A DNA stretch of 64,000 bases from positions 3,906,001 through 3,970,000 of the forward strand of contig NZ_CP034759.1 of assembly GCF_004295665.1 (NCBI RefSeq). The letters are read 5' to 3'. Below are positions 8,818-56,386 of the stretch, piece by piece. Each line of letters starts with the position of its first letter. The first letter of the stretch is position 1. Below the pieces are notes generated by a model. That model saw only the letters and a program-made list of their open reading frames with translations. It was not told the DNA's origin and made no database searches. The DNA comes from Litorilituus sediminis (GTDB taxonomy: Bacteria; Pseudomonadota; Gammaproteobacteria; Enterobacterales; Alteromonadaceae). A program made the translations under genes and the position numbers.

Positions 8818-8828
8818 ATTTATCTTTA

Positions 8829-8918
8829 TACCAAGTGAAATAATTATTTGACCAGTTCAGAGCTATGTCAGGGAGGTGAGAATAAAGCAAATTTATGCCG
8901 CTGTAGTCATTCTCCAGC

Positions 8919-8925
<7 letters not shown>
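8829..8925 (-). repeat. Half copy of the MITE-like dispersed repeat
   Basis: About 91-97 bases match, in reverse orientation, the right end of the full element at 56044-56305. It begins with the terminal sequence TACCAAGTGAAATAATTATT and continues past GCTGTAGTCATTCTCCAGC, where identity fades. Only this one end is present, and its inner edge joins directly to the remains of a chemotaxis receptor gene. Confidence 0.85.
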
Positions 8926-11465: not shown

Positions 11466-11526
11466 TTGCCTTGCCTATAAGCCTTTTAACTCTCGCTGAA
11501 TGAACAACTAGTTAACTCAATTGGTA
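11465..11526 (-). repeat. Half copy of the MITE-like dispersed repeat (other end)
   Basis: About 62 bases match, reverse-complemented, the left end of the full element at 56044. They run inward from the terminal TACCAATTGA through TTCATTCAGCGAGA and AAAAGGCTTATAGGCAAGG. The right half is absent. The inner edge coincides with the T-run of the preceding terminator. Confidence 0.85.
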
Positions 11527-11649
11527 TAATTCCTATTTCATTCATGGCTAAGTTGTTTTCATTACTCAGTGAACATGCTATTTTTGCCACAATTATTATG
11601 ATTTCAATAACTACCTTTAATTAGCAAAGGTTTTATTTAAGGATTTAGT

Positions 11650-13173: not shown

Positions 13174-13232
13174 CCGCTATTAACTCGCTTTCAATCATTT
13201 TAAAAAGTCACCAATTGGTTAACACATGTCAA

Positions 13233-14558
13233 TTAAGCATGTTTTGATTTGACAGGGTAGCGGGTTTTAGAAATACGAACGGTCCGGGCTTTGGGCCGTT
13301 TTCGTTTCTCTGGCAATATAAATTGTTTTACGTTTTCCCGCATCGCCCTCAACTTTTTAGGAATACTACCTGGTGAGGCTATTGCACACCACATAAACTC
13401 ATCTTGGATAAATCGCATTGCCATCACAAAGCTTATGCGTAACGGAGAGACTTGTGCTTCTGTCGCTATTTGACTTATCTCGGCTCTAATTAGGTTATAC
13501 GCAATTAATAATCCCCATATTTCTTGCTTTACGCCCTGAACTGTTTGGCTTCTAAGCAATATTGCATTATCAAGTTGAAATTGCTTTAACTCCCCATAGC
13601 CATTTTCTATCTCCCAACGCTCGAAGTACACTGCCAGAATATCTTCTGCTTTGTATTTATTAATGTCAGTTAAAGAGCTCAGGAGCCCTTTAATATGATT
13701 ACTTTGTTTGTTTTCTGGGTAAGTAACGAGGCGAGCTTGCCAAACTTCAGGTAAACTCGGGTCTTGTTTTCTGGCATGATTTGATACTGACATTTCAATG
13801 AGAAAATCATGTTCACTGTACTGTTCAATGACACGGTATTTGGTATTACTTTTTATGGGGGTTAACCAGTGCTGCTCTTGGTTATGCCGTTGCCAATTCA
13901 TCATAAGTTCTGCGCTTAGGTAGCACCTATCAAAAATAGTGAGTGAATTTGCTGATGCTGATGAAATTAACTGTTTCGCATAATTAACCTCGCCAACTCG
14001 GCTTGAGCCAAATGCGACATCTTTTATTAGGCGACTACGCAATGACATTAATGCACATAATCGTACTACTGGATATTCAAGGTGCTTATCTTGGCGGTGC
14101 TTGATATACCCAAACTCGCTTGCAGTTTCTGGCGTGTCTGCACAACGAAGCTGTGTGCCATCCACTGAAAAAAGTGATAGCCCACACCAAGTATCATCCC
14201 CATCTTGTTGTTGTGACCAATGTGTCGCCGTCAATTTAAATAGTTCAGCTAATGGAGTGTCACTTAAGCGCTTTCGTGCTTGCGGGATTGCACTGGGAGC
14301 AAGTGTTTCACCCAGTTTATCTGACAGTATTAGGTCAAGTTTATCAACAACCTCGGTAATAGGGCGATTACGATAAAGGCCTATTCCCACGATGAGCCAG
14401 ACAACAAGCTCAGCTGGTAGTTTGCGCCTTCTCATACTGGCTTTATCCGTTTCAACGAGTACCTTCTCTATCCATTCCATTGGCAAATGTTTTTGGAAAA
14501 CAGATAAATCTTCGGGAGCAGCAAAAGTGTCTGTATCGAGTAACCAATTTGAAAGCAT
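13233..14558 (-). CDS. IS4-family DDE transposase, copy 1
   Basis: Transposase of 441 residues from the ATG at 14558. An N-terminal IS4-type domain (RRRKLPAELVVWLIVGIGLY) precedes the DDE catalytic core. The first Asp is in LFSVDGTQL, the second in TIFDRCYLS, and the Glu in the YREK-like segment YFERWEIENGYGELK. An upstream in-frame ATG at 14585 would start inside a hairpin. I prefer 14558 because it matches the position of the start in IS4 copy 2 relative to the same hairpin. The frame is intact and all three catalytic residues are present, so the enzyme may be active. Confidence 0.92.
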   Translation of the reverse strand: MLSNWLLDTDTFAAPEDLSVFQKHLPMEWIEKVLVETDKASMRRRKLPAELVVWLIVGIGLYRNRPITEVVDKLDLILSDKLGETLAPSAIPQARKRLSDTPLAELFKLTATHWSQQQDGDDTWCGLSLFSVDGTQLRCADTPETASEFGYIKHRQDKHLEYPVVRLCALMSLRSRLIKDVAFGSSRVGEVNYAKQLISSASANSLTIFDRCYLSAELMMNWQRHNQEQHWLTPIKSNTKYRVIEQYSEHDFLIEMSVSNHARKQDPSLPEVWQARLVTYPENKQSNHIKGLLSSLTDINKYKAEDILAVYFERWEIENGYGELKQFQLDNAILLRSQTVQGVKQEIWGLLIAYNLIRAEISQIATEAQVSPLRISFVMAMRFIQDEFMWCAIASPGSIPKKLRAMRENVKQFILPEKRKRPKARTVRISKTRYPVKSKHA

Positions 14559-14592
14559 AAAAAAAATCCAGTGACTTGTGATCACTGGATTT
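14559..14592 (-). promoter_or_regulatory. Terminator-like hairpin abutting the transposase start (IS4 copy 1)
   Basis: On the transposase strand, stem AATCCAGTGA / TCACTGGATT is followed by an uninterrupted T-run ending one base pair before the ATG. No Shine-Dalgarno sequence is visible between hairpin and start codon. The structure looks like an intrinsic terminator that would limit transcription entering the transposase gene. The same arrangement occurs in copy 2. Confidence 0.75.
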
Positions 14593-14661
14593 TGACAGAT
14601 TGTAAAGATCGTTCAACCGATCATAATAATTTTCTTAACTGATCGGTGTTAACCAATTGGT

Positions 14662-23121: not shown

Positions 23122-23133
23122 TAAGGAGTGAAA

Positions 23134-23487
23134 ATGTCTGAGAATCAAATCCAAATTGAAGTGGTGTATGGGTTAGCACACAAGCAAAAACTTTTGACCT
23201 TGCCTGTAGCCGAAGGAACCACGGTTGAGCAAGCTATTGTTGAATCTGGCATATTGAGCATATTTCCAGAGATTGATTTAAAGTCTAATAAAGTTGGTAT
23301 ATGGAATCGCGCGGTTAAGCTAAATCAAGAGCTAGCAGATTTAGATAGAATAGAAATTTATCGACCGTTAATTGCTGACCCTAAAGAGGTGAGAAAGCGT
23401 AGAGCAGAAAAAGCGGTTCAAGAAGGGCGAGCAGACAAGACTACTGGCGGTAGGGTAAATCCTTTAAGAGCAGAAGCTAAGAAATAG
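23134..23487 (+). CDS. rnfH: RnfH / RatB family protein
   Basis: Ubiquitin-like-fold protein of the UPF0125 family, 117 residues. The core is IQIEVVYGLAHKQKLLTLPVAEGTTVEQAI, and PEIDLKSNKVGIWNRAVKL and DRIEIYRPLIADPKEVRKRRAE are the conserved family blocks. I chose ATG 23134 because AAGGAG lies five bases upstream; a GTG at 23128 would start inside that site. The C-terminus is extended by a basic tail. Function is not established although the gene regularly follows ratA. Its terminator has been duplicated by the insertion of the IS1182-family element. Confidence 0.93.
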   Translation: MSENQIQIEVVYGLAHKQKLLTLPVAEGTTVEQAIVESGILSIFPEIDLKSNKVGIWNRAVKLNQELADLDRIEIYRPLIADPKEVRKRRAEKAVQEGRADKTTGGRVNPLRAEAKK

Positions 23488-23546
23488 AGTTACTTTGCTA
23501 TTTTTCGAGTCACAAGAAAGCAAAAGAGCAGTCATTAGACTGCTCT

Positions 23547-25175
23547 CAGATTACTGACAAACCCCGTCATTCTGTTCGGGGTTTGTCTTTTATGAGCAGC
23601 CGTAGGCTGCGATCTCGATATTTTTCTAGCCACGTCTTTTCTATTTTATTTGGTTTTTCTGGACTTGTTTGGGGCTTATCTTCCCTATTTGGCGTGTTAA
23701 TGTCTCGAATTGAGCTTTTAAAGGGCTATCCTTTTTAGATTGCCATTATTTGGGGAATATTTGATAGCGTCATTGCTATCTTCTTCATATTTTGTGCTGC
23801 CGCAGCCATATATGCTTGCATTTGAACATTATGCTTACCTCGGTATCTTGCATACCTGTGACCATGGTGTTGCTTTGCATCAGCAAAACTTCTTTCAACG
23901 GTTTCGCATCGTCGTTTGTAAAGGTATTTACCAAGGCTTGTTAAGCGAAATTCATTAGCCCGATCTTGACTCGCAGCCATTACGTGGCGTGTTATCACTT
24001 TCTTATGACTTTTACTCTTAGTGCAATCTTTTAATTGAGGGCAATTAACGCATACCTTGGGGTCAGAATGATATTCTCGGTAACCCTCTCGACTGGTGGT
24101 CGAGTAGATTAACGTTTGCTCTTGCGGGCAGGTATACGTATCTGCTTTCTCGTCGTATTTGAAGTGCTTTTTCTTAATGGCATTCTTCGTTCGTGAAGGA
24201 CGACGGTAACCAAACACCCCTTGGATGTTACGTTGTTCCAGATTAAAACAGACGGGCGCTGTGAAGTAGCCTGCATCAATACCAACAAATTCAGGGATAG
24301 TGCAAAGCGATTTTCAATGGCATCAAGGCGAGCAATGTATGGTTGAGAATCGTGGACATTACCTGGCGTAATATGCGTATCTACAATAATGTTATAGTCG
24401 TTATCTACGGTTCTGTGGTCTAGGTAGAAAAAACCTTTTGGCTTTTCATCTCGGTGCATATAACCGCTATCACTATCGGTTTTACTTACCTTATTCCGCT
24501 TTATCTCACAATAGCCTTTATCCTTGAGTGGCTTTTTTCCAGCCGCTTTACGGTCTGCCTCCACAGCTTTGTTGATTTGCTTAATATAGGCACTGGTTGA
24601 GACGGGTTTGAGCTTGTTGGTGAACTTTCGTTTATTGGCGTTTGCTTTTAAGTGTGTGCTGTCGGTGAATAAGGCTTTGCCCCCAACTAGACCATGTTTA
24701 ATGGCTTGTTGGACGATGTGATTAAATATACGTTCAAATACATCTGTGCCATTGAAACGACGAATACGATTTTGACTAAGTGTTGAGGCATCGATAACTT
24801 TCTCGGTAAGCCCCATGCGGAGAAACCATCGATACGCGACATTTACTTCGATGTCTTTGATGATTTGGCGCTCACTTTTAATACCAAATAAGTACCCAAG
24901 TAGCATAATTTTAAATAGCTGGACTGGCTCCACCGGAGGACGACCATTATCAGTGCAATATAAGTCTTTGACTTCATCTCGAATAAACTCAAAGTCAATA
25001 TACTTATCGAGTTTACGAACTAGATGGTTGGCTGGAACTAACTGGTCTAGCGTGACCATTTCGAGTTCATGTTGTTGCGGGGAAGGTTCTCTTAACATGG
25101 TTAATTTTTGTAATTTTCCATGTTTTTATTAGATCAAAGTCCTAGACTACTGTCTAGGACTTTGTCATCAGTCTG
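23547..25175 (-). mobile_element. IS1182-family insertion sequence with frameshifted transposase (1629 bp)
   Basis: The ends form an inverted repeat (CAGATTACTGACAAA on the left; CAGACTGATGACAAA read inward from the right). Just inside each end is a strong hairpin (CAAACCCCG/CGGGGTTTG; CAAAGTCCTAGAC/GTCTAGGACTTTG). The element is flanked by a 22-base direct repeat (23525-23546 and 25176-25197). Each copy is a complete hairpin, AGAGCAGTC-ATTA-GACTGCTCT, which with flanking A and T runs is the original terminator between rnfH and bamE. So the target terminator was duplicated whole. Long duplications are known in this family. Confidence 0.9.
23735..25098 (-). pseudogene. IS1182-family transposase, frameshifted
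   Basis: The N-terminal frame (25098 to about 24300) carries the DUF772-type domain (HELEMVTLDQLVPANHLVRK, VQLFKIMLLGYLFGIKSERQ) and the first DDE residues (ALFTDSTHLKANANK). At about 24290-24310 the homologous sequence shifts frame. The other frame continues with PEFVGIDAGYF and the zinc-finger-like part CVNCPQLKDC, to the Glu-containing end CETVERSFADAKQHHGHRYAR and a stop at 23735. The first frame instead ends in 66 unrelated residues. Members of this family normally have one continuous ORF, so I call it a pseudogene; programmed frameshifting is the less likely alternative. Confidence 0.85.
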
Positions 25176-25212
25176 AGAGCAGTCATTAGACTGCTCTTTT
25201 GCTTCAGAAACA

Positions 25213-25276
25213 TACTGCTTAAATGAGTTACAGAGCTACTGCTTAAATGAGTTACAGAGCTACTGCTTAAATGAGC
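25213..25276 (-). repeat. 24-bp tandem repeat at the 3' end of bamE
   Basis: Two perfect 24-base units (25213-25236, 25237-25260) plus a 16-base partial unit. In the bamE frame each full unit contains SFKQ followed by a TAG stop, so the expansion carries the stop codon with it. Reading past both stops gives SFKQYVSEAKEQS, which may be the ancestral C-terminus. Confidence 0.85.
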
Positions 25277-25646
25277 TTGTTTCCTCTTCTGCTTCGGCAG
25301 GGGCATTAAATGGCGTGTAAAAATTTTCCGATAATTCAAAATCACCGCTGGCATCTACTAATTTATCTTCTTCAAACTGTAAGACAAAAGATTTTTTTGT
25401 GTTGAATTTTTCACTTCTACCCGATTTAAATTTATACACATAATGCCAAGCATCTTGATTAAAGGCATCGACAACTACTGGGCTGCCTAAAATAAACTTA
25501 ACCTGCTCTTTAGTCATACCTACTTGTAATTTCTCTATACTTTTTTGCTCAAGATAATTACCTTGTGGGATATCGATACGATAAACCCAGCTAGAACAAG
25601 CTGAAAGAGACAAGGCAATAGTAATAGCGGCAACACGAAACAACAT
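25260..25646 (-). CDS. bamE: Outer membrane assembly lipoprotein BamE
   Basis: BamE (SmpA) is a small lipoprotein of the Bam complex that inserts beta-barrel proteins into the outer membrane. The 128-residue product has a signal peptide ending in LSAC (Cys17), then the conserved core YRIDIPQGNYLEQK and LQVGMTKEQVKFILGSPVVVDAFNQDAWHYVY, where the GMT..QV..ILG.P block and W.Y are diagnostic. The tail is acidic (EAEEETSSFKQ) and ends in a 24-bp tandem repeat that has probably moved the stop. Convergent with rnfH, with the IS1182 element now between them. Confidence 0.95.
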   Translation of the reverse strand: MLFRVAAITIALSLSACSSWVYRIDIPQGNYLEQKSIEKLQVGMTKEQVKFILGSPVVVDAFNQDAWHYVYKFKSGRSEKFNTKKSFVLQFEEDKLVDASGDFELSENFYTPFNAPAEAEEETSSFKQ

Positions 25647-39617: not shown

Positions 39618-39880
39618 AGACGGTTATTTTAGTGGTATTTGCCATGATAGGTGTGTCTTTGTTGCTAAACCTTTGGCGGCTTTTAGTTGGTCCTTCTATT
39701 CCTGATAGAATTTTAGCGCTTGATACCATGTATATTAATAGTATTGCACTGATTATTTTATACGGGATGAGTTTAGGCACAACACTTTATTTTGAAGCGG
39801 CATTGTTAATTGCCATGCTTGGTTTTGTTAGTACAGTAGCTGTGTGTAAATATTTACTGCGCGGCGATATTATCGAGTAG
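39611..39880 (+). CDS. mrpF: Na+/H+ antiporter subunit MrpF
   Basis: Three-helix subunit of 89 residues. The family signature is LLVGPSIPDRILALDTMYINSIALIIL, where the conserved Pro-Asp-Arg lies in the first loop. It ends FVSTVAVCKYLLRGDIIE. The last third of the gene (from 39802) is duplicated just downstream by a 115-bp tandem duplication, but this first copy is complete. Confidence 0.95.
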   Translation: MLETVILVVFAMIGVSLLLNLWRLLVGPSIPDRILALDTMYINSIALIILYGMSLGTTLYFEAALLIAMLGFVSTVAVCKYLLRGDIIE

Positions 39881-40031
39881 GGGATTAGATATGACTGAAT
39901 GGATAATTTCTATTTTATTGTTAATTGCCATGCTTGGTTTTGTTAGTACAGTAGCTGTGTGTAAATATTTACTGCGCGGCGATATTATCGAGTAGGGGAT
40001 TAGATATGACTGAATGGATAATTTCTATTTT
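39802..40031 (+). repeat. 115-bp perfect tandem duplication at the mrpF/mrpG junction
   Basis: 39802-39916 and 39917-40031 appear identical. Each contains the 3' end of mrpF, its stop, the mrpG ribosome-binding region and start, and the first mrpG codons. The short sequence ATTGTTAATTG occurs at both junctions and once more at 40032, so slippage or recombination between an 11-base microhomology in mrpF and mrpG explains it. No divergence between copies was seen, so the event is recent. Confidence 0.95.
39891..39995 (+). other. Chimeric 34-codon ORF (MrpG start + MrpF end) made by the duplication
   Basis: From a second mrpG start signal, the ORF reads MTEWIISILLLI from MrpG, then AMLGFVSTVAVCKYLLRGDIIE from MrpF, and stops. 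It has the same ribosome-binding context as mrpG, so it is probably translated, giving one membrane-helix peptide. It is an accident of the duplication and has no evolved function that I can support. Confidence 0.75.
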
Positions 40032-48252: not shown

Positions 48253-48359
48253 TTATTAATTGCTTAATGTTATTGAGAAAAGCCACTTTTTAGTGTAATG
48301 CCGATCAGTTAAGGCAAAAAAGTTTGGGGATCAATTGAACGATCCCTACAATATGTAAG

Positions 48360-48391
48360 AATCCGATAAATAAAGTTTATCGGATTTTTTT
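48360..48391 (+). promoter_or_regulatory. Terminator-like hairpin abutting the transposase start (IS4 copy 2)
   Basis: Stem AATCCGATAAA / TTTATCGGATT with a TAAAG loop, then a run of seven T that ends at the ATG (48392). There is no Shine-Dalgarno sequence between them. The stem differs in sequence from copy 1 but the position and form are the same. Confidence 0.8.
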
Positions 48392-49723
48392 ATGCGCTTT
48401 GAAAGTGAACTTGCTACAGCCTTTAGTTCTTGTAATACCTTCCACACCTTTGAGAAATACGCAGAGTTGCTCTCCCCTGAGTTGATTAAACAAGGCTTTA
48501 AACAAGCTGGCGTCGCCACAATTAGAAAAAGGCGCCTACCACTTGAAACCGTGCTTTGGTCAATTATCGGTATGGCACTATATCGTCAGAAGTCGGTTTG
48601 GGATATAGCCACTCAGATGGATATCATGTTGCCTGATAAAAAGCCATTAGTGGCACCAAGCGCACTGGTTCAAGCAAGACAAAGGTTAGGCGCAGATGCC
48701 GTTAAAGAAGTGTTTAAAGTGATGGCACAGCATGGTTATGAATCGAACCAGTTTGAAACATGGGCGGGCTTGAACCTGCTAGCCGTTGATGGTGTCGTAT
48801 GGCGAGTCGCCGATACTGCTGAAAACCACAAAGTATTTGAAACGCAAAGTAACCAGCATAGAGAAAATATTTATCCTCAAATCCGTATGGTTTGTCACAT
48901 GGAAATTACGAGCCACCAGCTAATCAACAGCGTATTTTCAGGTTACCGAACTAATGAAATGAAATTAGCAGAAGGGCTAATAGAAACGACACCAGATAAT
49001 ACATTAACTATCTTCGATAAAGGCTATTACTCGCTTGGTTTGCTCAATCGATGGCATCAAGCAGGAGAACAAAGACACTGGATGATACCAGCTCGTAAAG
49101 ACTTAAATTACGATGTCATCCAGAGTTTGGGCAAGAATGATAAACGTATTCGGTTAACAACAACGCCTCAAGCTCGTAAAAAATTTAATGACCTACCAGA
49201 ACATATTGAAGCCAGATTAGTGAGTAAAAAAATTAAAGGTAAAGAGTACCGTATTCTGACCTCAATGGTCGACCCAATACGCTTTCCAAGCGAAGAAATG
49301 GTTGAGTTATACCGGTATCGCTGGGAAATAGAATTAGGCTATCGAGAGATGAAACAATCGCTACTTAACAGCGCTTATACTTTAAGAAGCAAGCGACCAG
49401 ATATGATTGAACAGGAGTTATGGGGACTCCTTCTGTGCTACAACTTGATAAGGCAAGGGATGACAGCGGCAGCAAGAAAGCTTAATAGCACTTGGCCTAA
49501 TCAGCTTAGCTTCACGAGTTGCTCAATGGCAATTACTCAGTTCTTTGCCACATTGCCTCTGTCTAGCCCTGGCAATATTCCCAAACACTATGAAGCTTTA
49601 CTGACACAAATGACTTATTTTAAATTACCAGAGCGGCGTGAAGAGAGGCAATACCCAAGGTGGGTTAAGGCAAAACCCCAAAGGTATCCAAGGAATACAA
49701 AAAATGCCAATCAGCTTAACTGA
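48392..49723 (+). CDS. IS4-family DDE transposase, copy 2
   Basis: Transposase of 443 residues, homologous to copy 1 with the same length but clearly different sequence. The N-terminal domain is [22 protein letters not shown]. The DDE residues are in [18 protein letters not shown] and the YREK segment [16 protein letters not shown]. The frame is intact with all catalytic residues. The stop codon lies within the right inverted repeat. The ATG directly follows a T-run of a hairpin, as in copy 1. Confidence 0.93.
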
Positions 49724-49807
49724 CTGGCATTACACTTTTTAGTGGCTTTTTTATTGGGAAAAGAAAATAATTGTCAAAAAAAGATAATGTCGGGAAATTA
49801 AAAGTTA

Positions 49808-52309: not shown

Positions 52310-55300
52310 ATGCAAAATATAGTACGTCTGTGCCTATGGCCGCTTGTTATTATTAGCATATTGTTCGTGCAAATGCCCATTATGGCTGAGGAAGAGCGTG
52401 GCATTCGCATGCGAGGCCCTAAAAGTACCGATGTATTTCCTTATGATCGTTATGGGCCAATCACCTCAAGAGACACCCTTTGGAATATTGCTTTAACCGT
52501 TCGACCTGATAGCCGTTTAACGGTTTATCAAGTAATGCAGGCGTTATTTCAAGAAAACCCGCAAGCCTTTGTTGAAAATAATCGTAATCATTTAGTAGAA
52601 GGTCAATACATCAAGATTCCTTCGTTTGAACGCATGATGTCAATTGACAGCCAAATTGCTCGCAAAAACACTGAGATGGATGAGCAAGCTTGGCAAGATA
52701 AACAACCTAAAATTGTTAAGCCTAAGAAAAAAGCAGCAGAGCCGAGCGTTAATAAAAAAGATCTTGATACCGTAAAGGTTGAGATCAATGAGCAAATCAA
52801 AACCCTTGATAGTGCCCAGCAGCAAAGATTAGAAACCATACAAAATGATGTTTTAGACTCCATTGATGGCTTGCAAGCGATTTTAAAAGAGAATGAATCG
52901 TTAAGACAACGTTTGACCTCATTTAGCGATAAGCTAGGAGTGATGCAAGCAGAAGTGGCTAAAGGCAAAGAAATCAAGTCGCAAATGGATGACATGATTA
53001 AGCTGCAACAAGAGTTGCTTGCTAAAGCTGAAGCGCGAGAACAACAGCTGTTATTAGAAAAACAACAAGCTGAATTAGAAAAAAATGACTTTACCTCGAG
53101 CTTCTGGTTTACCGTGTTAATGTCTACTGTGCCTGCTTTGCTGATACTTTCTATTGCTTTTTTCATCCTAAGACGCGGCAATAAAGATAACGAGCAATTT
53201 GCTGAAGACTTATTTGAGCCAAAAGCCAAAGCAGCCAAAGTTAGCGATGAAAGCAAGAGCTTAGATGATGAACTTGGCTTAGATGACGATTTATCTTTAG
53301 ATGATGACTTAGGGTTAACTGATGATTTATCAATTGATGATGAGTTAGGCCTAGATGACGATTTATCGTTAGACGATGAATTGGATTTAGATGATGAACT
53401 TAACTTAGATGATGATTTGTCAATTGATCTGCTTGAAGGTGATGACAAAGAAAGTGAAGATGATGCCATTCATCTTGATGATGATGACGCCTTAGATGAT
53501 TTAGACGATTTGGAAGACATCTTATTAGATGATGATAGTGACGTTGAAACATTAGAAGGCGGTGAGCTTGGTCAAGGAGATTTAGATTCTTTGTTGTCAG
53601 GTCTTGATGAAGAAGCTGAAGATGAACCGGCTGAGAGTGTCGGTGAAGCATTGCCAGGTGGAGAACTCAATCAAAATGATTTGAATGATTTATTGGGGAG
53701 CCTAGATGAAGAGCAAGCCGATGATGAAGTGGATGCCGACTCTATTATTGAAACAGATGATGTTATCGAAGATGAAGTAGGCATTGAAGAAATAGATATT
53801 GATGAAGCCTTAGAACAAGCGACTAAAGCAAAACAGCCCTCAGCTGAATTAGACGATAGTGCTGAAGCTACAGACCCTGATGATATTGATGCTTTACTTG
53901 ATTCTATGGGCACTGAGTCTAGTGAAGATAAAGCGGAAGAAGAACCTGCGCCAGAAGCTTCAGTTGCCGATGACTTGCCAGATGAAGTCACCGATCCTGA
54001 TGATATTGATGCTTTACTTGATTCTATGGGCGCTGAGTCTAGTGACGATAAAGCACAAGAAGAAACAACAGCTCCAGCTGAAGAACCAGTGCCAGAAGCT
54101 TCAGTTGCCGATGACTTGCCAGATGAAGTCACCGATCCAGATGATATTGATGCTTTACTTGATTCAATGGGCACTGATTCTAGTGACGATAAAGTAGAAG
54201 AAGAAACAACAGCTCCAGCTGAAGAGCCTGCGCAAGCATCTTCAGTCGCGGATGATTTGCCAGATGAAGTCACCGATCCTGATGATATAGACGCTTTACT
54301 TGACTCTATGGGCGCTGAGTCTAGTGACGATAAAGCGGAAGAAGAAACAACAGCTCCAGCTGAAGAGCCTGCGATAGAAGCTTCAGTAGCTGATGAATTG
54401 CCAGACGAAGTCACAGACCCTGATGATATAGACGCTTTACTTGACTCTATGGGCACTGAGTCTAGTGACGATAAAGCGGAAGAAGAAACAGCAACTCCAG
54501 CTGAAGAAGCAGTGCCAGAATCTTCTGTAGCCGATGACTTGCCGGATGAAGTAACCGATCCTGATGATATAGACGCTTTACTTGATTCTATGGGCGCTGA
54601 GTCTAGTGACGATAAAGCGGAAGAAGAAACAGCAACTCCAGCTGAAGAAGCAGTGCCAGAATCTTCTGTAGCCGATGACTTGCCAGATGAAGTAACCGAT
54701 CCTGATGATATAGACGCTTTACTTGATTCTATGGGCGCTGAGTCTAGTGACGATAAAGCAGAAGAAGAATCACCAACAGATTCAGTGGCAGAAGCTTCAG
54801 TAGCCGATGACTTGCCAGATGAAGTAACCGATCCTGATGATATAGACGCTTTACTTGATTCTATGGGCGCTGAGTCTAGTGATGATAAAGCAGAAGAAGA
54901 AACAACAGCTCCAGCTGAAGAACCTGCGCCAGAAGCTTCAGTTGCCGATGACTTGCCAGATGAAGTTACTGATCCTGATGATATAGACGCTTTACTTGAT
55001 TCTATGGGGGCAGATGTTCACGAGGTTGAAGATAAACCTGTAGAAGAGCAAGTTCCGTCAGGGGCTTCGCAAGCAATGGCAACTGATGCCTTAGTTGATG
55101 AGAATGAGCAAGCTGAGCCAGTCGATTCAGAAAATGCAGATAAGATAGCACAAATGACTGCTGAATATGTTGAGCCGTTCTTAACTGCTGATTTTAGCGA
55201 TGTCTTAACAGGCAAGATTGAAGATACGCAAGAGCTTTCTTCAGAAGAGCAGGTGCAAGAGCCAGACGTTGATGCGGCAATTGATGATGAAATTGATATA

Positions 55301-56035: not shown

Positions 56036-56043
56036 AAATTTAA

Positions 56044-56305
56044 TACCAATTGAATTAACTATTTGCTCATTCAGCGAGAATTAAAAGGCTTATAGGCAAG
56101 GCATTGATTGCAGAGAATGGCTTTTCCCTTGTCAAAATCAATAACACCGCATATAAGCCTTTTAAACTCGCCCTTGGGAGCTTGTCAGGAAGATGATAAT
56201 TTCACAAATTTCTTTGCTGGAGAATGACTACAGCAGCATAAATTTTCTTTATTCTCACCACCCTGACACAGCTCTGAACTGTTCAAATAATTATTTCACT
56301 TGGTA
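56044..56305 (+). repeat. Full-length MITE-like dispersed repeat (262 bp)
   Basis: Non-coding element between hubP and truA with imperfect terminal inverted repeats of about 31 bases: TACCAATTGAATTAACTATT on the left and TACCAAGTGAAATAATTATT read inward from the right. TA occurs at both outer edges, which would fit the TA target of IS630/mariner-type transposition. An inner inverted repeat AAAAGGCTTATA / TATAAGCCTTTT is present. Two half copies occur at 8829 and 11465. It has no ORF, so it would need a transposase in trans. Confidence 0.85.
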
Positions 56306-56386
56306 TAAAGCATAGCATAGCGCATTAAAATAAAGGATAATGCGCTGAAATTTTGAATGTGATGTGTTTTAAGGTGGCAACTTCTT

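Follow-up and report, generated by a model that had tools for sequence, protein, structure and literature searches.

An IS1182-family insertion sequence in Litorilituus sediminis is flanked by duplicated terminator hairpins of its host

In the gap between rnfH and bamE of Litorilituus sediminis, an insertion sequence (IS) lies between two identical copies of a host stem-loop, which raises the question of how a complete hairpin comes to be duplicated around an inserted element. The length of a target duplication is usually near-constant and reflects transposition-complex geometry. Here the duplication varies in length with the target hairpin, a behavior that links the choice of target to secondary structure in the DNA. 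We examined the locus within a window of 64,000 nucleotides (contig NZ_CP034759.1, positions 3,906,001 to 3,970,000; positions below are counted from the first base of this window), along with the other copies of the IS in the genome and its relatives in other bacteria.

The element, its flanking hairpins, and the host genes that converge on it are listed in Table 1. The first-pass annotation of this DNA had placed an IS1182-family element between two copies of the rnfH/bamE terminator hairpin, and this was borne out: the 22-nt stem-loop AGAGCAGTC-ATTA-GACTGCTCT, derived from the rnfH/bamE gap, stands exact on both sides, outside the IS ends. The annotation had further described the duplicated sequence as an entire stem-loop, which holds insofar as the stem-loop is exact in both copies, but the perfect palindrome at this site continues for 7 pairs outside the repeat, and the repeat thus comprises the core stem-loop rather than the whole palindrome. 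The element is assigned to the IS1182 family by its terminal inverted repeats (CAGATTACTGACAAA and CAGACTGATGACAAA, the latter being the right end in reverse complement), by the score of the transposase of the intact copy L002 against the NCBIfam model NF033551, transpos_IS1182 (490 bits, with a cut-off of 270), and by the make-up of that transposase, a single ORF of 454 aa that carries a DUF772 and a DDE_Tnp_1_6 domain. Compared with L002, the window copy has a single 1-nt gap, and its transposase frame is split; the frame is open in the remaining 15 genome copies. Tandem repeats of 24 bp at 25214-25275 adjoin the right hairpin and extend into the 3' end of bamE.

Table 1. Features of the occupied rnfH-bamE gap, in window positions.
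Feature	Position	Strand	Remarks
rnfH (Ub-RnfH)	23128-23487	+	Host gene upstream of target terminator
Left terminator stem-loop copy, AGAGCAGTC-ATTA-GACTGCTCT	23525-23546		A-tract side kept, equal to a T-run for leftward transcripts; scanner match on - strand
IS1182-family insertion sequence, 1629 bp	23547-25175	-	Transposase on - strand
Hairpin in transposase-stop end of IS, GACAAACCCCG..CGGGGTTTGTC, then TTTT inward	23556-23587		Terminator-like for transcripts from rnfH
Transposase C-terminal part, DDE_Tnp_1_6	23735-24217	-	Separated from N-terminal part in window copy
Transposase N-terminal part, DUF772	24109-25098	-	Split frame; 1-nt gap relative to L002
Hairpin in transposase-start end of IS, CAAAGTCCTAGAC-AGTA-GTCTAGGACTTTG	25135-25164		Upstream of transposase start; no T-run behind
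Right terminator stem-loop copy	25176-25197		T-run for rightward transcripts kept
bamE	25260-25646	-	Convergent host gene, far side of terminator

A DNA search of the L. sediminis genome (one contig of 4,275,717 bases) returned 16 places with this IS, all full length, and when the flanks of all 16 were read and their direct repeats listed, every copy proved to lie at a terminator hairpin. In 14 of these, the direct repeat is exact and forms a dyad-symmetric stem-loop of 16-34 nt, with a different sequence in every case. The other two (L004 and L010; G000:C1 2901120 and 2910179), which lie in opposite orientation ∼7.4 kb apart, each have a whole hairpin on either side, but with exchanged partners: one copy has X on its left and Y on its right, and the other has rcX and rcY, as is predicted by an inversion between two IS copies. 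A composite transposon was also considered for this pair and dropped, because the loci are given in genome orientation and the flanks fit a plain inversion. Under a rough rule based on the longest ORF to either side, 12 of the 16 copies lie between convergent genes, a gentle way of colonizing a genome, and excerpts of a published survey list IS1182 among the families over-represented between convergent genes (PMC9208149). As against these 16 near-identical copies, no relative was found at E<=1e-60 in 38 genomes of the same genus. Overall, only one of 98 other genomes (G077) had a match at E<=1e-60, with 33% identity and no element ends found there, and a class-wide search of 369 genomes at E<=1e-90 produced matches in L. 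sediminis alone. Judging from these comparisons, the IS likely arrived recently in this genome and spread in a burst.

The correspondence between repeat and hairpin was quantified in 34 copies with exact repeats, 14 from L. sediminis and 20 from other bacteria, leaving out the two inverted copies, three mixed copies, L065, L100, L117, L136, and L137. At least 5 outer Watson-Crick pairs in exact register were found in 31 of the 34 duplicates, including all 14 from L. sediminis (the exceptions, with fewer than 5, were L069, L075, and L103), as compared to 3378 of 2,175,254 random window stretches of matched lengths (1.55e-3), and the symmetry of the repeats is thus beyond chance. Repeat length ranged from 16 to 34 nt and tracked the size of the hairpin. 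Insertion could in principle be untargeted, with selection sparing only those copies that landed in terminators, and the position of most copies between convergent genes, where a terminator is a harmless site, is in line with this; selection, however, cannot align the length and register of a repeat with a hairpin, and the gulf between 31 of 34 and the random frequency makes this account very improbable. Insertions outside hairpins may still be lost by selection and hence be missing from our counts. As for the boundaries, 31 of the 34 repeats start with A and finish with T, and 30 have at least 4 A in the preceding 8 bases plus at least 4 T in the following 8. Extra Watson-Crick pairs extend beyond the repeat in 27 copies, often as an A/T tract, which places the cut away from the base of the perfect palindrome.

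Hairpins on both sides of an IS might alternatively belong to the element itself or travel along with it, a reading for which we found no support and which can be dismissed for practical purposes, since the 14 exact genome repeats all differ and related sites without the element hold the hairpin once. The latter were found among plasmids: a megablast search with ∼500-base flanks recovered element-free records for all six of the occupied plasmid loci searched, and the one record read for each (L111-L116) has a single hairpin. Three of them are identical to flank plus one repeat plus flank (140/140, 148/148, and 139/139 bases), a fourth matches at 143/145, and the last two (L115 and L116) carry indels and substitutions, yet one hairpin is visible in their sequence. 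In these plasmid elements, therefore, the repeat is a target duplication, and the hairpin is host DNA rather than an IS end, as the first-pass annotation had held. For the window locus itself, 18 same-genus loci were fetched and the rnfH-bamE gap was compared in the 13 that had both genes, none of which provided a sequence-level empty site. As judged by eye, 12 of the 13 have a single terminator between the two genes, with a sequence other than that of the window, and L052 has none.

Hairpin duplication extends well beyond L. sediminis. Exact whole-hairpin repeats were found in 23 of 32 same-group loci outside this genome, with some host genomes contributing more than one copy: 11 of 17 loci from named genomes (17 of 34 relatives were read, the remaining 17 being fragments or interrupted by contig ends), 10 of 12 plasmid loci (hand-picked, mostly from environmental hosts, and non-random, with 13 taken from the best 40 of 954 matches and, in a second set chosen likewise, 7 from the best 60 of 1196), and L136 and L137. 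Their hosts are Salinivibrio, Vibrio, Klebsiella, Cellvibrio, Rhizobium, Sphingobium, Aminobacter, Bacillus, Alkalihalophilus, Siminovitchia, Sporosarcina, Cytobacillus, Niallia, Paenibacillus, Enterococcus, Acetoanaerobium, and a clostridial MAG, such that the pattern spans several classes of Pseudomonadota and Bacillota. The exact whole-hairpin repeat of L100 has a changed tip base. Elsewhere, whole hairpins are present on both sides but differ from each other (L078, L102, and L109), the repeat is imperfect (L065), or a hairpin is present at one side only (L117, from Enterococcus), and element ends were not found in four of the 32 loci (L071, L072, L081, and L084).

Distant members of the family, with 27-30% identity to L002, behave differently. 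Short repeats (4-7 bp) were found in four of the five examined, although the search for their ends favors ends with a repeat and makes these short repeats the weaker evidence: 4 bp in Dinoroseobacter (L132) and Sulfitobacter (L133), 5 bp in Sinorhizobium (L134), and, in Bradyrhizobium (L138), 5 or 7 bp according to where the end is placed, with no clear repeat in L135. The four with repeats are annotated as IS1182 family or transposase and are similar in size to the window element, from which they differ in the shortness of the repeat. A tree of 27 transposases, which came with long-branch warnings, splits the hairpin-repeat group and the distant group at one branch (100/97). Some of its labels were set ahead of or without proof ('hairpinTSD' for L100, L065, L102, and L109, and 'shortTSD' for L135), that of L100 being confirmed later. 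The 27 transposases do not include that of IS1272, from which the hairpin-repeat group is set apart by its product.

Whether a duplication of hairpin length is dictated by the site or by the transposase can be judged from two IS4-family elements in the same window (13220-14651 and 48296-49732), which also lie within terminator palindromes but whose repeats, of 10 and 12 bp, cover the loop and split the stem. The first of these has six full copies in the genome, five of them in terminators with repeats of 10-11 bp across the loop and one (L121) without a repeat. Because IS4 elements yield 10-12 bp at the same kind of target, the hairpin-long repeat is a property of the IS1182-type transposase and not of the site. 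The contention that all three insertion sequences of the window, from two families, used terminators holds for the elements found (the IS1182-family element and the two IS4 elements), in a search by Pfam of 22 of 64 listed ORFs of at least 100 aa that leaves room for further elements.

The closest comparison is with IS1272/TnSha1 of staphylococci, which is likewise of the IS1182 family and inserts at inverted repeats or terminator hairpins that vary in sequence and size (excerpts of PMC5678879 and PMC4923244). According to these excerpts, IS1272 deletes the target stem-loop without target duplication, for which the authors argue an attack at the 3' foot (PMC5678879), and Furi and co-workers describe partial deletion of the hairpin by IS1272/TnSha1, again with no duplication (PMC4923244). 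The window element shares with this 'IR-replacing' type an inverted-repeat target without fixed sequence. Where IS1272/TnSha1 removes the stem-loop wholly or partly, however, the window element keeps and duplicates it, and the six related empty sites have one copy. It also departs from the IS1182 members with ∼4-5 bp duplications, such as the 4-bp ones listed for ISPse1 (PMC3281130) and ISCaa15 (PMC3196728) in the text available from these papers, as its repeats measure 16-34 nt. As judged from sequence, it is an IS1182-family member and, by its product, not of the IS1272 hairpin-deleting type. Its product is instead that of pathway b in Fig. 13 of Wan and co-workers (PMC5678879), an alternative in which attack at the 5' foot leaves the whole stem-loop at both IS ends; the excerpted part of that paper names no element for this drawing, and the present elements give its product. 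Within one family they therefore form a counterpart to hairpin deletion by IS1272, which makes the model of 5'-foot versus 3'-foot attack testable by comparing two transposases. Named groups are also represented: L104, from Bacillota, is annotated as ISBspe1 family and has an exact whole-hairpin repeat like that of the window element, differing in that the hairpin of its transposase-start end begins at nt 2 rather than nt 12, and L136, also from Bacillota and with such a repeat, is among Enterococcus matches of which others are annotated as ISEfa7. Reports on IS1182-related transposases differ as to whether the target is duplicated, deleted, or neither, and as to whether sequence or structure is targeted (excerpt of PMC12056078), and a 2015 review by Siguier is cited by the authors of PMC4923244 and PMC5678879, in the portions available, as noting palindromic targets. 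Duplication of a whole stem-loop by a named element, or as a stable trait, was not found in the partly available literature searched; curated IS databases may list palindromic repeats.

With a probability of roughly 0.6, we favor the reading that this multicopy IS1182-family element has a transposase that targets intrinsic-terminator palindromes by their shape and attacks extruded hairpins at their 5' feet. The extrusion, the points of attack, and the gap filling are what we infer from the end products. The target palindrome would be extruded as a cruciform or as paired hairpins, and, most likely, the hairpin of each strand is attacked at its 5' foot by one of the two IS 3'-OH ends. The two points would be spatially close, like those of ordinary strand transfer, and a whole hairpin apart in sequence; gap filling would then duplicate the hairpin, leaving one complete copy per side. 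A/T tracts around terminators would ease extrusion, and branch migration within them would often place the cut inside the A/T extension rather than at the palindrome base. That the element lands on terminator hairpins and leaves one on either side suggests that the transposase reads DNA shape and not letters. A transposase dimer might achieve much the same by binding the palindrome arms in plain double-stranded form, at flexible spacing and without hairpin extrusion; DDE transposases act as dimers, the repeats are symmetric, and the A...T bounds of 31 of 34 could be a weak half-site. Past the boundary A/T, however, the arms appear unrelated by eye, and a spacing range of 16-34 nt is large for B-DNA bound by a rigid dimer, so we think this unlikely. 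Targeting could also be coupled to transcription or replication, with the transposase acting on single-stranded hairpins exposed where RNA polymerase pauses or on the template of the lagging strand. In its favor, all 16 sites in L. sediminis are terminators, mostly between convergent genes, and A- and T-rich tracts lie on both sides of 30 of 34 repeats. We give such coupling little credence, as the symmetry of the repeats demands equivalent attack on both strands and IS1272/TnSha1 enters a coding-region hairpin too (excerpt of PMC4923244).

The insertion was said to have left a functional terminator on each side, of which the hairpins stand, but only the outward-facing T-run is retained in each duplicated hairpin: termination is thus predicted for leftward transcripts at the left copy and for rightward transcripts at the right copy. 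Of these hairpins, a simple consensus scanner picked up the left copy alone, and this just on the - strand; the right copy and the IS end hairpins were not listed. A transcript from rnfH would first meet a hairpin that lacks a T-run, followed by the IS hairpin with its TTTT; on the bamE side, the IS end hairpin has no T-run. Transcripts that run out of the element, among them the transposase mRNA at its left end, would be stopped by the duplicated hairpins. In general, the outer halves of the duplicated terminator would halt outgoing transcripts and the IS end hairpins, many with an inward T-run, probably halt incoming ones, and with both stopped, we propose that insertion between convergent genes does little harm.

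The IS ends are themselves structured. All 46 ends of 23 elements, some of them non-independent, have a hairpin with dG < -10 that starts within the first 13 nt, and 43 of the 46 exceed the best of 20 dinucleotide shuffles in stability. An inward tail with at least 4 T in 9 nt follows at 35 of the 46 ends, a rough count because several folds include distant closing pairs; since such a tail is absent at the transposase-start end of the window element among others, the presence of inward terminators cannot be generalized. When 17 of 26 Bacillota ends, selected after the folds were seen, were aligned, an 11-pair helix from nt 2 had 95.2% of its cells paired and 20 cells changed on both sides. Its covariation score was reached by 0 of 500 shuffles and slid versions pair at <=49.7%, while the count of pairs changed on both sides (4) was matched in 119 of 500 shuffles. 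In Bacillota, stems are predicted to start at nt 1-3 for 12 of 13 transposase-start ends and for 8 of 13 transposase-stop ends, an arrangement under which cleavage of the donor and attack on the target could each take place at a hairpin foot. From this arises the tentative and rather doubtful idea that the transposase recognizes hairpins on both sides of the reaction, as a DDE transposase that would read DNA secondary structure in donor and target alike; the stems of the window element, which start only at nt 12 (transposase-start) and nt 10 (transposase-stop), count against it.

The window contains other repeats. Dispersed pieces at 8824-8924, 11467-11527, and 56043-56310 are similar to one another (93-94% complementary) and are possibly MITE-like remnants. 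A perfect tandem duplication of 115 bp is present at 39802-40031, and tandem repeats of ∼141 bp lie at 53798-55075, inside an ORF of 1241 aa.
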